Shown here in pieces: positions 16,229 to 25,715 of a stretch of 39,140 nt of DNA (position 1 is its first letter; every line of letters starts with the position of its first letter). This DNA comes from an uncultured Verrucomicrobiales bacterium (GTDB taxonomy: Bacteria; Verrucomicrobiota; Verrucomicrobiia; Verrucomicrobiales; Akkermansiaceae). A program made the translations under genes and the position numbers. A model generated the notes under the pieces. The model was not told the DNA's origin and did no database searches. It saw only the letters and a list, made by a program, of their open reading frames with translations. The DNA is taken from positions 1 through 39,140 of the forward strand of contig CASICJ010000054.1 of the NCBI GenBank assembly GCA_949373085.1, given 5' to 3'.

Positions 16229-17689
16229 ATGAAATCTCTCTTACTTTTTATTTGCTCCTTTTTTCCGGTGATTGTTTTCGGTGACCGAGCTAAGCCCAAT
16301 CTTGTATACATTCTTGCCGATGATTTGGGATACGGAGATCTCAAGAGTATGAATCCGGAAGGGAAAATCAAGACACCTGGATCAGATCAAATGGCAAAGG
16401 AAGGGATGGTTTTTACCGACGCACATTCTAATTCTGCTGTTTGCACGCCGACTCGTTATGGGGTTTTGACTGGGCGCTATGCTTTTCGCTCGCGGATGAA
16501 AAAAGGGGTGCTGAATGGTTATTCCAGCTATCTGATTGAGGATGGCCGTATGACCGTGCCGTCATTTTTGCAAAATCAGGGGTATCATACTGCTTTTATC
16601 GGGAAGTGGCATCTTGGCTGGGATTGGGCGATGGATGGTGAGAAAGTTGATTACTCCAAGCCGGTTGAGAACGGACCGAAAGAGAAGGGATTTGAGTATT
16701 CTTACGGTCATTGTGGTTCTCTCGATATGGCTCCCTACGTTTGGGTTGAAAATGGAATGCCTACAGCGGTCCCTACAAAAGAGACTGGGCGGTCGAAGAA
16801 GGAGTCAAAAAATGGTTGGTGGCGTAAGGGACCAACCTCGCCGGACTTTGAACACGAGGATGTTTTGCCGAACCTCACCCGTAGAGCGGTGAAGTATGTC
16901 AAGGAACAGGTTAAGAACGAAAAACCGTTCTTCCTCTATCTTGCTCTGCCTTCTCCACATACTCCGGTGTTGCCCACTCCTGAGTTCGAGGGGAAAAGTG
17001 GGCTGAATAGTGCCTATGCAGATTTTGTCACGATGACCGACGATACGGTGAAGCAGATACTCGATGCTTTGAAGGCAGGAGGGGTCGATGAGAACACGCT
17101 CTTCATTTTCACGAGTGATAATGGTTGTTCACCCGAAGCGGATTTTGCAGAGTTGGAGGAGCAGGGTCACAATCCCAGCTCTATTTATCGTGGTCATAAA
17201 GCAGATATTTTTGAAGGCGGACATCGGGTTCCTTTTATTGTGCGGTGGCCCGCTAAGGTGAAGGCGGGAACAAGTTGCGATGACCCGACTTGCTTGACTG
17301 ATCTTCTGGCGACGATGGCGGAAGTCTTGGGTCAAAAACTTCCAGCTGAAGCGGGAGAGGATTCGGTCAGCATGTTGTCGAACCTCATAGGGGCGGGTAA
17401 GCAGCCGGTTCGTGAGGCGATTGTTCACCACTCTATCAATGGGACCTTTGCGATTCGTCAAGGTAATTGGAAGTTGATCGATGCTCCTCACTCCGGAGGT
17501 TGGAGTCGTCCGAAGCCTGCTCAAAAGGCGCTTTATAAAGATCTCCCTAAAATTCAGCTTTATGATTTGCAAAAAGATCCCGCGGAGTCTCGAAACGTAT
17601 CGGTCGAAAATCCGAGCATCGTAAAGAAGCTGAAAATGCTCCTAGAAAAATACCGCGAGGATGGTCGGAGTGTTCCGGTTGCTCGGTGA
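16229..17689 (+). CDS. Exported type I sulfatase (arylsulfatase-like, S1 family)
   Basis: 486 residues with a signal peptide ending near FGD. The metal site starts with NLVYILADDLGYGD. The formylglycine signature is CTPTR at residue 72 (NSAVCTPTRYGVLTGRY): Cys72 would be oxidised to formylglycine by a sulfatase-maturing enzyme encoded elsewhere. Further family sites are FIGKWHLGW, LALPSPHTPVLP (His near the sulfate), FTSDNG (second metal Asp-Asn) and the C-terminal LYDLQKDPAESRNV. It hydrolyses sulfate esters, most plausibly on algal or animal sulfated polysaccharides after secretion. The exact S1 subfamily cannot be given without a search. Ends with TGA, showing that TGA is a normal stop here. 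Confidence 0.95.
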   Translation: MKSLLLFICSFFPVIVFGDRAKPNLVYILADDLGYGDLKSMNPEGKIKTPGSDQMAKEGMVFTDAHSNSAVCTPTRYGVLTGRYAFRSRMKKGVLNGYSSYLIEDGRMTVPSFLQNQGYHTAFIGKWHLGWDWAMDGEKVDYSKPVENGPKEKGFEYSYGHCGSLDMAPYVWVENGMPTAVPTKETGRSKKESKNGWWRKGPTSPDFEHEDVLPNLTRRAVKYVKEQVKNEKPFFLYLALPSPHTPVLPTPEFEGKSGLNSAYADFVTMTDDTVKQILDALKAGGVDENTLFIFTSDNGCSPEADFAELEEQGHNPSSIYRGHKADIFEGGHRVPFIVRWPAKVKAGTSCDDPTCLTDLLATMAEVLGQKLPAEAGEDSVSMLSNLIGAGKQPVREAIVHHSINGTFAIRQGNWKLIDAPHSGGWSRPKPAQKALYKDLPKIQLYDLQKDPAESRNVSVENPSIVKKLKMLLEKYREDGRSVPVAR

Positions 17690-22302: not shown

Positions 22303-22788
22303 TTACTTAACAGTGATCTTACCCTGCATCAGAGCGAAGTGTCCGGGAAAGCTACAAAGATACTGATACTCCCCGGCCTCTTTAATGCTGAACGTGACCG
22401 AGTCAGACTCACCACCGCCCAGAACCTTGGTTTTGGCAATGACGGCTTTCTTAGAGGCCTCGTCGACTGGAATGTAGTTAGTGGCGGCCGCAGTCATCGC
22501 TTTGCTTGCCCAACCCGCTAGGTTGGTTCCTTTTTGAAGGATGACGAGATTATGCCCCATCGCAATTTTGGGAAGTTTCCCAACGTGTTTAAGAGTTATT
22601 TTGACGGTATCGCCAGCTTTGATTTCAAAAGCTTTTTTGTTGAACTGCATCTGATCGTTTGCTTCCACCACGACTTCTTGATCAACCTTCTTTTCGGTGT
22701 TGTCATTTTCGGGTTGTGCAAAAACAGTCGCTGGGGAGAGAACGAGAGCTGCGGCAAAGAGCTTGGAAGTAACTTTTTTCATATGCAA
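22303..22788 (-). CDS. Azurin-like periplasmic copper protein
   Basis: 161 residues; a second Met two codons in may be the true start. The signal peptide ends near TVFA. The mature protein has a type-1 copper site with azurin spacing: His79 (AMGHNLVIL), then C145-x4-H150-x3-M154 (CSFPGHFALM). The helix-containing insertion between His and Cys (LAGWASKAMTAAATNYIP) is also azurin-like. It should carry single electrons between periplasmic oxidoreductases and is a candidate partner for the copper-fused and PQQ-type dehydrogenases nearby. Azurin, rather than plastocyanin, is favoured by the C-x4-H-x3-M spacing. Confidence 0.93.
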   Translation of the reverse strand: MHMKKVTSKLFAAALVLSPATVFAQPENDNTEKKVDQEVVVEANDQMQFNKKAFEIKAGDTVKITLKHVGKLPKIAMGHNLVILQKGTNLAGWASKAMTAAATNYIPVDEASKKAVIAKTKVLGGGESDSVTFSIKEAGEYQYLCSFPGHFALMQGKITVK

Positions 22789-23544: not shown

Positions 23545-24024
23545 ATGGGGGAATATCGATCGAATGTTGCGGCTTTGATAATCAACAAGGATGGTTACCT
23601 TCTTGTCTGTGAGAGATTACTGAACCCCGGTGCTTGGCAATTTCCACAGGGAGGAGTTGACGAGGGTGAATCGCTGGAAGCAGCAATCTTGAGGGAGATA
23701 GAGGAAGAGATTGGTCTTAAGCCAAAAGACTACAAAATCGAAAGTTCGAAGGGTGTTTATCGATATGACTTCCCTCCTGAAGCACAGAACAACAAGCCTC
23801 CTTACAAAGCCGGTTTTGTGGGTCAGGAGCAAACTTACTTCCTTTGCCAGATTAATGAAGGGGTGACCAAGGTGAATTTAATGCAAGAGCCCCGCGAGTT
23901 TCGTTCGGCGAAGTGGATTCGGCCTAATGATTTTGAGTTGGCGTGGCTGCCCGATTTTAAAAAGAAAACCTACCAAAAAGTGATGAGTGATTTCTTTGGA
24001 GTGCAGTTGATCGTGGTCAGCTGA
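23545..24024 (+). CDS. rppH: RNA pyrophosphohydrolase-type Nudix hydrolase
   Basis: 159 residues. The Nudix box is complete (GGVDEGESLEAAILREIEEE then IGL, residues 36-58), giving the metal-binding Glu residues. The surrounding pattern YRSNVAALIINKDGYLLVCER, GAWQFPQGG, YDFP and QEQTYFLCQ is typical of RppH/dinucleoside polyphosphate hydrolases. RppH removes pyrophosphate from 5'-triphosphate RNA and so starts decay. An Ap4A hydrolase activity is the main alternative. The gene ends in TGA, a normal stop. Confidence 0.88.
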   Translation: MGEYRSNVAALIINKDGYLLVCERLLNPGAWQFPQGGVDEGESLEAAILREIEEEIGLKPKDYKIESSKGVYRYDFPPEAQNNKPPYKAGFVGQEQTYFLCQINEGVTKVNLMQEPREFRSAKWIRPNDFELAWLPDFKKKTYQKVMSDFFGVQLIVVS

Positions 24025-24090: not shown

Positions 24091-24585
24091 TTAGGAAAGC
24101 TCGCCGAGTCTGGCTTTGATCGCTTCGAAATCAGGAAGGTCGCCAGGGCTGTCGTTGACTTGGGCGTATTGGACGATACCGGATTTATCGATGAGGAAAG
24201 CGGAGCGTTTAGGAACTCCTCCCATGATGAGGTTCTTCTCGGGGAGAAATTGATCATAGGCGATACCATAGGCTTCCGTAGCTTTATGATCGTAGTCGGA
24301 TAGGAGCTGGAGACTAATGCCTTCCTTTTCGGCCCATGCTGCTTGGGCAAATGGATTATCACCGGAGATTCCGAGGACTTTGCAGTTCAGATCAGAGTAA
24401 GCTCCAAGACCAGCGGAGATGTCACAAAACTCTTGCGTGCAGACACCGGTGAAGGCCATGGGGACAAAAAGGATTAGGATGTTCTGCTCACCGGTTATTT
24501 TGGAGAGAGTGACAACTTCGGGACCACCTTCGCCGAGTCCGACGAGGGAGAAATCAGGGGCATGATCGCCAATTTGGATGCTCAT
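24091..24585 (-). CDS. Peroxiredoxin (AhpE/BCP type)
   Basis: 164 residues of the AhpC/TSA fold: GDHAPDFSLVGLG start, LFVPMAFTGVCTQEFC active site, GISGDNPFAQAAWAEKEGI, FLIDKSGIVQYAQV. The peroxidatic Cys is C49 in the P-x3-T-x2-C motif. C54 at C-x4-C spacing matches the resolving Cys of atypical two-Cys BCP enzymes, while the flanks are AhpE-like. It reduces peroxides with thiol donors. It has its own terminators on both sides and so is a single-gene unit, but it lies directly downstream of the selenoprotein candidate. Confidence 0.93.
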   Translation of the reverse strand: MSIQIGDHAPDFSLVGLGEGGPEVVTLSKITGEQNILILFVPMAFTGVCTQEFCDISAGLGAYSDLNCKVLGISGDNPFAQAAWAEKEGISLQLLSDYDHKATEAYGIAYDQFLPEKNLIMGGVPKRSAFLIDKSGIVQYAQVNDSPGDLPDFEAIKARLGELS

Positions 24586-24672
24586 ATCGGTGGGATCATA
24601 GTTGAGGTTGATGGGATGGAAACTGAGAAATACGAAAAAATGTTAGAGGGCCTTCTGAATGTCTGAATAAAG

Positions 24673-24703
24673 AAAAACCCGAGCCGTTTCAACGACTCGG
24701 GTT
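24673..24703 (-). terminator. Intrinsic terminator of the selenoprotein candidate gene
   Basis: Near-perfect 13-base arms (AACCCGAGCCGTT / AACGACTCGGGTT, one mismatch) with a two-base core, followed on the minus strand by TTTTTCTTT. It sits 33 bases after the TAG stop of the 24736-25302 frame. A functional-looking terminator after the full-length frame supports the full length as the real gene. Confidence 0.88.
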
Positions 24704-24735
24704 TCTCAGTTTGAGATTGTTTTATCTGATGAGAG

Positions 24736-25302
24736 CTAGAGCGGGCTGCTGGCTAACTTGGTTGCCTTTTTGATGACAGATTTGCGTTTCTTGGTCATTT
24801 CACCAATTTTTTCCCCATCGTAAGAGTCGGCAGTAGCCATGAGGAGGGTAATAGAACCTGCGTTTACAAAAGCAGCACTCACTTCTTCCAATTTTTCGAG
24901 ATCGGCACGCAATCTCTCATTGGTTTGCGCTCATGTGCCACCGGTGACGGCGATTGCGTAAGCTTCCTTTGGTGCAGCAATTTTCCTTTGCATGACGCGC
25001 TCGAGTTTAAGACCACCAGCTTTCAATGCTTTCCCCACGTTGACGCGGGTGAATTTTACATCTTCGCTTTTGGTAGTCACGAAAGCAGTCATGCCAGAGA
25101 GCATCACTTTCTCAACGCCACCTATTTTACTCAAGGCCACACGGGCCTTTTTTGCAGCACTTCACCCACCACCGCTGAAGGATACGGTGTATCCGCCGAT
25201 GGTCGATGCAGCGACGTCTTCAGCATCAGCCGGGGCAGCATTCGCTACCGGGGCTATTGCTCCGAAGGCACACATCATGCCAAATCTAATTGTTGCGTTC
25301 AT
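24736..25302 (-). CDS. Selenoprotein candidate: exported tandem HMA/MerP-like protein with two in-frame TGA (Sec47, Sec124)
   Basis: The frame runs from ATG 25302 to TAG 24738-24736: 188 codons with two internal TGA, at 25164-25162 and 24933-24931. Residues 1-22 are a signal peptide (MNATIRFGMMCAFGAIAPVA, cleavage near ANA). Residues ~37-105 and ~113-180 each show the beta-alpha-beta-beta-alpha-beta order of heavy-metal-associated domains, e.g. GGYTVSFSGGGU, SAAKKARVALSKIGGVEKV, then AYAIAVTGGTU, AQTNERLRADLEKLEEV. Both TGA codons replace the first Cys of the HMA GxTCxxC loop and lie 77 residues apart. The second loop Cys is Ala or Thr, and no Cys exists outside the signal peptide. SECIS-like hairpins follow both. 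The role is probably periplasmic binding of soft metals or selenol redox chemistry. The alternative is a pseudogene with two nonsense mutations. Confidence 0.78.
24888..24923 (-). promoter_or_regulatory. SECIS-like stem-loop after TGA 2
   Basis: Two-tier hairpin: CCAAT/ATTGG, then an internal loop, then GAGAT/ATCTC, closed by a 9-base loop TGCGTGCCG. The apical loop begins 20 bases after the TGA and has G as its second base, meeting the general rules for bacterial SECIS elements (apical loop about 16-37 bases downstream, G in the first two loop positions). Confidence 0.55.
25133..25149 (-). promoter_or_regulatory. SECIS-like stem-loop after TGA 1
   Basis: Perfect 6-base stem AAGGCC/GGCCTT with loop CGTGT. 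The loop starts 19 bases after the TGA and has G as its second base, fitting the bacterial SECIS pattern recognised by SelB. No conserved bulged U as in E. coli fdhF is evident; that bulge is not universal. Confidence 0.55.
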
Positions 25303-25387
25303 TTCATTACTAGGTTAACGCACCAAGATGGCCCTGCAAGTGGAGTTTTTCAGTTTGTTGTTGTAAGTAAGCTTTTGAAAATTGAAT

Positions 25388-25457: not shown

Positions 25458-25715
25458 TTATTTTTCGTTCCGGGCAGCTTTAGTTGCCTCGGCTGTGGCA
25501 ACCTGAGACTCACTTTGGAATTTCCAACGAACCTTGTTACGCTTGGGAGCAGTGCGGGCCTTACGAATTGCGCGGACGATGTTGCTTTCATGGGAGCGGC
25601 GACGGCGCATTTCCTCAAGAATGCCCTCGGTATCGAGCTTGGTTTTCAAGCGCTTCAGTGCGCGATCGACACTCTCTCCACTTTTGACATTAACGCCACG
25701 AATATGCTTTTCCAT
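25458..25715 (-). CDS. rpsU: 30S ribosomal protein bS21
   Basis: 85 residues. The bS21 core is clear: VNVKSGESVDRALKRLKTKL, then GILEEMRRRRSHES and a basic stretch VRAIRKARTAPKRNK. It binds near the anti-Shine-Dalgarno region of 16S rRNA and affects initiation. A C-terminal extension (WKFQSESQVATAEATKAARN) is longer than in E. coli (71 residues). Monocistronic, with a strong terminator. Confidence 0.92.
   Translation of the reverse strand: MEKHIRGVNVKSGESVDRALKRLKTKLDTEGILEEMRRRRSHESNIVRAIRKARTAPKRNKVRWKFQSESQVATAEATKAARNEK

Follow-up and report, generated by a model that had tools for sequence, protein, structure and literature searches.

The window analysed here is a 39,140-nt stretch of an uncultured Verrucomicrobiales bacterium (assembly GCA_949373085.1, contig CASICJ010000054.1, positions 1 to 39,140), which is contig C54 of a draft genome of 3.41 Mb in 72 contigs, 81% complete. 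It carries a gene, hereafter the tandem gene, for a small and apparently exported protein that is predicted to contain two selenocysteine (Sec, U) residues, one in each of two predicted heavy-metal-associated (HMA) domains. Codons 1-188 run on the minus strand from 25302 to 24739, followed by a TAG stop at 24736-24738, and the frame is interrupted solely by TGA at codon 47 (25164-25162) and codon 124 (24933-24931). The initial annotation had described the same 188-codon frame, broken only by these two TGA codons, without giving a strand, and our reading of the frame agrees with it. The features of the gene are as follows.

24736..25302, minus strand: 188-codon frame encoding the double-Sec protein, with its TAG stop (frame reading, presence in 50 genomes, dN/dS)
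25162..25164, minus strand: TGA, predicted Sec47 (TGA at the aligned column in 50/50 copies)
24931..24933, minus strand: TGA, predicted Sec124 (TGA at the aligned column in 50/50 copies)
25237..25302, minus strand: apparent signal peptide, residues 1-22, MNATIRFGMMCAFGAIAPVANA (by eye, from general signal-peptide rules)
25133..25149, minus strand: hairpin 1 of the selenocysteine insertion sequence (SECIS) type, 6-bp stem, 5-nt loop CGUGU, 18 nt from TGA to loop (pairing with synonymous control, bacterial SECIS criteria)
24898..24916, minus strand: SECIS-type hairpin 2, 7-bp stem, 5-nt loop CGUGC, 21 nt from TGA to loop (same evidence)
24976..25203, minus strand: predicted HMA-like domain 1, residues 34-109, loop GGGU-SAA (AlphaFold2, Foldseek, VIA-align)
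24754..24966, minus strand: predicted HMA-like domain 2, residues 113-183, loop GGTU-AQT (AlphaFold2, family profile)

The conservation of both TGA codons was assessed by searching 386 genomes from the order, the window's own genome included, with a profile built from an alignment of loci on named contigs and proteins from the Joint Genome Institute (JGI). The tandem gene was carried by 50 of the 386 genomes, and the best match in each carrier contained exactly two TGA codons and no TAA or TAG. Extraction of all 50 frames placed TGA at both aligned columns in every copy, never Cys, while identity to the window protein dropped to 20%; only six columns were invariant (G44, G46, U47, G70, G121 and U124). 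A preceding scan of named genome contigs had returned nine loci, with TGA at both sites in the eight full-length ones and the first TGA in the cut one; seven of the nine already lay within the 50, L013 and L018 being additional, and the nearest named relatives belonged to Akkermansiaceae and other verrucomicrobial metagenome-assembled genomes. Samples of the phylum (387 genomes) and the class (384 genomes), which overlap with each other and with the order sample, yielded 3 and 11 tandem genes, respectively, all within the 50 and all with two TGA codons. Among 5.8 billion predicted proteins, a word-based search retrieved just four relatives, all from JGI and all with Trp at both sites; in one run that added a hidden Markov model, scoring was limited to the 7994 candidates with the most words in common. 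A Cys form of the protein was found neither among the 5.8 billion proteins, nor on the named contigs, nor in the 386-, 387- and 384-genome samples.

Selection on the frame was estimated as the ratio of nonsynonymous to synonymous substitution rates (dN/dS) in pairwise comparisons with five genes of the same genus. It was 0.06-0.18 over codons 48-123 and 0.02-0.05 over codons 125-188. Selection on the frame is therefore purifying behind each TGA, and the frame appears to be translated past both. TGA also ends 6 of the 26 listed open reading frames (ORFs) of the window, including a NUDIX gene (23545-24024) and the ORF at 16229-17689, and is the terminal stop of 2 of the 50 family members; TGA is therefore an ordinary stop here and the recoding is local, with no change of code, as the initial annotation had already concluded from neighbouring genes. 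The good signal peptide and the absence of any other Cys from the mature part, both noted from the start, were likewise found on our inspection: the leader was read in the same way by eye, and the sole Cys of the window protein is C11, within it. AlphaFold2 gave residues 1-31 a predicted local distance difference test (pLDDT) score below 50. C11 lies in the leader core (MCAFGA; codons 11-15, 25258-25272) and is kept in 20 of 21 same-genus carriers, which is odd for a signal peptide. In some relatives the leader reads as lipoprotein-like instead, with a Cys (e.g. LASC).

Both TGA codons are followed by a hairpin, spanning positions 15-31 behind TGA 1 and 17-35 behind TGA 2 (T of TGA as zero), with a 5-nt loop whose second and third positions are G and then U or G in all copies. 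At site 1 (50 sequences), 95% of cells were paired and the stem was fully paired in 39/50; at site 2 (47 distinct sequences), the values were 94% and 29/47. Reshuffling of synonymous codons (500 runs) reduced mean pairing to 65% at site 1 and 59% at site 2, with at best 6/50 and 4/47 stems fully paired in any run, and shifting the 3' arm by 1-3 positions lowered pairing to 21-61%. The bacterial SECIS (bSECIS) model given in a 2026 review calls for a loop of 3-9 nt, a stem of 4-16 bp, G in loop positions 1-2, a distance of 16-37 nt from UGA and a minimum free energy of at most -7.5 (PMC13188914). Both window sites fit it, as do 45/50 family members at site 1 and 42/50 at site 2. Control positions also passed in 1039 of 6659 cases; the model is therefore permissive, and the synonymous control carries more weight. 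These hairpins are kept far beyond what synonymous coding would produce, and they fit the bacterial model as candidate SECIS elements. A scan of the window against Rfam at gathering thresholds gave zero matches, a result that we take to be uninformative on bacterial SECIS elements.

The machinery for Sec decoding was then sought in the genomes. The window's genome contains selA (413 bits), selB (318 bits) and selD (269 bits for its main part), each above the curated cut-off, together with a tRNA-Sec (selC) scoring 53.6 bits against a cut-off of 47 and called by ARAGORN as tRNA-SeC with anticodon tca. All four genes that the initial annotation had proposed to look for are thus in the same genome, selD being interrupted: in this gene (L124, G000:C8:1589-2519), a TGA occupies the GGU place and the frame changes near codon 82, perhaps through an assembly slip or else as a real frameshift. 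A score above the cut-off for the tRNA-Sec model RF01852 is not specific by itself, as it occurs in 5/14 control genomes and 181/386 order genomes, and we therefore counted tRNA-Sec only for listed matches of at least 88 nt, a filter devised for this analysis. Under this filter, tRNA-Sec was present in 44/50 tandem carriers compared with 49/336 non-carriers. Five of the six carriers that failed it have selB over the cut-off, a search that 2/14 control genomes pass, and the sixth (G337) shows neither, so that tRNA-Sec or selB is over the cut-off in 49/50 carriers.

We regard the recoding of both TGA codons to Sec as nearly certain, because TGA stands at both sites in 50/50 copies, the hairpins are selected, selA, selB, selC and selD are present and dN/dS is low. 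In the genome and among the homologues, none of the outcomes that the initial annotation had named as refuting its two-Sec recoding appeared: the sel genes are present, and the homologues it had suggested examining held TGA at both sites rather than random other residues. A decayed gene or an assembly error might be suspected in a draft of 72 contigs at 81% completeness; this explanation is practically negligible, as 50 assemblies keep both TGA codons and an otherwise open frame with purifying selection behind both, and random decay, judged unlikely from the outset, would have to fit a family with two TGA and no TAA or TAG in all 50 best matches. Another account is that TGA is reassigned (code 4 or 25), the residues being Trp or Gly without selenium. 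The four JGI proteins with Trp at both sites look as though TGA had been translated under another code. Codes 4 and 25 reassign TGA throughout the genome, whereas here TGA also terminates window ORFs and two family members and recurs within the frame at two fixed sites that are each followed by a SECIS-type hairpin, in a genome with full Sec machinery; we consider this account extremely improbable. Scarcely more credible is readthrough by a near-cognate tRNA, or separate production of the pieces, without selenium: it would leave two properly spaced hairpins with the bSECIS loop G, selected independently of coding, and the presence of tRNA-Sec or selB in 49/50 carriers to be explained otherwise.

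The fold was predicted with AlphaFold2 as two beta-alpha-beta-beta-alpha-beta units, each with a metal loop before helix 1 (mean pLDDT 78.9), in line with the two ferredoxin-like repeats recognised earlier. The two domains are homologous (hhalign 98.5%), and the family profile of domain 2 matches chains of CopA, MerA, ZntA, MerP and CopZ. Pfam HMA (PF00403) matched 29/50 members at E <= 1 (best 1.2e-7), and the window's own protein gave no match. The initial assignment of the TGA sites to the first Cys of an HMA loop finds support in the fold comparison and the family profiles, although the window protein by itself falls short of Pfam HMA. The models support two HMA domains of the MerP/CopZ type with predicted Sec at the first-Cys place. 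After Sec, the window protein reads U-x-x-A in domain 1 and U-x-x-T in domain 2 (Thr in 42/50 members), with no second Cys, and a two-thiol CxxC site was absent from the family, as none of the 50 members has Cys at U+3.

Several known systems come close to the tandem protein. One of them, the UxxU metal-binding (seleno)protein family NF041115, is listed as UxxU with two Sec and the label 'putative mercuric reductase' (PMC13188914, Table 1). It shares with the tandem protein a small HMA-type domain and Sec in the metal loop, and its profile weakly matched 47/50 members (best 4.7e-9); however, its model spans 74 positions and places both Sec in a single UxxU motif, whereas the tandem protein has two domains with one Sec each and no UxxU, and the window protein scored 17.6 bits against a curated cut-off of 95. 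MerP (TIGR02052), a mercury-binding protein of the periplasm, is similar in being exported, as the tandem protein apparently is, in its HMA fold and in its Sec or Cys at the same loop, with weak matches in 31/50 members and a window score of 16.4 bits against a cut-off of 92.55. MerP has one domain with a CxxC site and belongs to the mer operon; the tandem protein, by comparison, has two domains and no CxxC, and no Mer protein occurred among nine neighbouring window proteins scanned (two of which were without any Pfam match). By those rules the tandem protein belongs neither to MerP nor to NF041115, as it falls below both cut-offs. A Sec-containing MerP, with two sequences, is listed in the paper on the Global Ocean Sampling (GOS) metagenomes (PMC2398784), which agrees with the mention in the initial annotation of Sec-containing Mer-like proteins in marine metagenomes.

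The best fold and profile matches were to CopZ and the tandem HMA domains of CopA and ATP7B, B. subtilis CopA also having two consecutive HMA domains, but the domain arrangement differs (whole-protein template modelling score ~0.31). The domains of CopZ, CopA and ATP7B carry Cys-xx-Cys and are cytoplasmic, as part of an ATPase or as a copper chaperone, whereas the tandem protein has predicted Sec only, is likely exported and stands alone. MbdU (NF045648), a MerT/CopZ fusion (NF045683) and a Sec-containing cation-transporting ATPase resemble it in that Sec is tied to metal handling, in some cases with two Sec, but they have other layouts and motifs (CU, C/SxxU and UxxC); NF045683 matched 2/50 members (best 0.041), and NF045648 was not among the best 25 of 51 matched families. 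Table 1 of the 2026 review lists 119 families and subfamilies, of which NF041115 (UxxU), MerT, the cation ATPase and the double selenoprotein MbdU are linked to metals or HMA, and no entry of that table is described as a protein of two HMA domains that each carry one Sec (PMC13188914). A literature search of titles and abstracts, with subscription papers and supplements outside the search, returned nothing on such a protein, and the 2022 and 2026 reviews of prokaryote selenoproteomes do not name Verrucomicrobiota in their main text. On these comparisons, we class the tandem proteins as a new predicted selenoprotein family within the known HMA superfamily.

A second apparently exported Sec protein was found in the same genome (L110, G000:C67:25832-26179, minus strand). 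It has 116 amino acids (aa), an apparent signal peptide and one HMA domain over the PF00403 cut-off, and its gene contains one TGA with a hairpin behind it; it is a profile relative of both tandem domains (hhalign 96.6%) and, in contrast to them, keeps a Cys in the motif U-A-S-G-C (UxxxC). A search with this protein matched 31/386 order genomes, and 29 of the 31 matches had TGA in the HMA loop with Cys four residues on; the other two were rejected, G103 because it belongs to a TGA-free frame of 832 aa and G134 because only a remnant lacking the loop is left. The UxxxC gene occurred in 28/50 tandem carriers compared with 1/336 non-carriers, or 1/49 of the non-carriers passing the tRNA-Sec filter, counts that are inflated by shared descent. 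The single-domain UxxxC protein is a probable partner of the tandem protein.

Further matches were of mixed nature. Seven weak matches of the order scan were single-domain Sec proteins. Among 14 weak matches of the phylum sample, one was the own genome's single-domain Sec gene, and three (G001, G575 and G693), taken from those that were shorter or contained TGA, were rejected as tandem relatives, being ordinary CxxC HMA domains that exemplify the Cys found at the Sec place in the wider superfamily (the TGA of G575 lies past the domain); those beyond these four were parts of 289-847-aa frames without TGA. Four short frames of family f86 outside the order (G737, G742, G747 and G756; 117-128 aa, one TGA each) match domain 1 of the profile, and two of them also contain TAA or TAG; they are possible single-domain Sec HMA proteins. 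Only once in the order sample, at L144 (G023:C79:149288-149823), did a Sec-decoding genome have a single-domain Sec HMA gene while lacking the tandem gene; the single-domain gene there has a lipoprotein-like leader. L122 (G318:C32:1-2600) holds a pair of neighbouring Sec genes with a single HMA domain each, one of them with a lipoprotein-like leader, and L123 (G274:C47:4500-6255) encodes a two-domain UxxxC protein with two TGA codons; together these predicted genes point to a second, separate route to double-Sec HMA proteins.

We consider it probable that the tandem protein is an exported two-HMA protein with one predicted Sec per domain and no partner Cys, which binds a soft metal or metalloid through its selenolates; a role in metal or metalloid handling is, in our estimate, slightly favoured. 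Each hairpin would act as a SECIS element for SelB and Sec-tRNA, and the N-terminus would send the protein across the inner membrane, where it would be soluble or, in certain relatives, attached through a lipid anchor. The metal ligand would be the Sec at the start of helix 1, which is the place of the first Cys of CxxC in MerP, CopZ and CopA. With one Sec per domain and the asymmetry between U-x-x-A and U-x-x-T, the two domains might share one ion between two selenolates or pass the ion on; alternatively, a partner, likely the single-domain UxxxC protein, might supply the second ligand. A more speculative extension, which we put forward tentatively, is an extracytoplasmic selenium-based trap for soft metals or metalloids in Verrucomicrobiales, made up of two exported selenoproteins, in which the selenolates would hold one ion or lock as a diselenide when oxidised, the UxxxC partner would load or unload it, and Cys could not substitute, hence the lack of a Cys form.

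The main competing explanation is that the two Sec form an extracytoplasmic redox pair, as an intramolecular diselenide or as a selenenylsulfide with a partner, that reduces peroxides, disulfides or metalloid oxyanions. The window's mature protein, with two predicted Sec and zero Cys, would suit such a pair, and the U-x-x-T motif is listed for OsmC-like and GPX-like selenoproteins in the review, according to which most uncharacterised selenoproteins are likely redox-active (PMC13188914). The next gene downstream, in the window as in the close relatives L011 and L013, also encodes an AhpC/TSA peroxiredoxin, but the remaining 13 of 16 regions compared, same-genus ones included, do not have it among their shared genes. 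Moreover, the fold and the place of Sec are those of a metal-loop HMA domain, not of a thioredoxin-like protein. We therefore hold the redox pair to be a possible but doubtful function, and binding of a soft metal or metalloid to be the likelier one, because two exported selenolate sites would sit in a metal-chaperone fold.

Because two stop codons conceal the two predicted Sec of each chain, standard annotation would likely miss the family, which brings predicted Sec use to HMA-type proteins outside the cytoplasm in Verrucomicrobiota. Sec seems not to be exchangeable with Cys here, with TGA at two sites in 50/50 copies of a fold whose known metal sites are Cys pairs, and the small protein makes the question of what Sec can do that Cys cannot a testable one.

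In the window, the tandem gene is flanked by a gene for ribosomal protein S21 (25458-25715) and the AhpC/TSA peroxiredoxin gene (24091-24585), and the three share the minus strand. Across the 16 regions, these flanks were common only to L011 and L013 and differed in three further same-genus regions (L016, which is cut short, L104 and L105). A putative rRNA methylase gene is the convergent neighbour common to three g10 regions and is uninformative about function, and clusters 0 and 1 recur without a fixed place; the gene neighbours are no help for function. A gene for a plastocyanin/azurin-type copper protein lies ~2 kb downstream (22303-22788, minus strand) and is kept, among the regions compared, in L011 and L013 only; a copper link is possible.

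Two putative transcription signals flank the gene.

24672..24707, minus strand: terminator-like hairpin just 3' of the stop (consensus match; two found compared with a shuffle mean of 2.9, which is no evidence alone)
25312..25339, minus strand: possible promoter TTGCAG..TAACCT near the start codon (by eye, from same-genus upstream sequences; weak)

A consensus scan for promoters and terminators found no more sites in the window than in shuffles and did not report the promoter at 25312-25339. By eye, a TTGC box ~37 nt before the start codon was seen in 18 of 21 same-genus carriers, and a TAA-rich box ends ~9 nt before ATG in several of them. The mRNA of the tandem gene may be leaderless.
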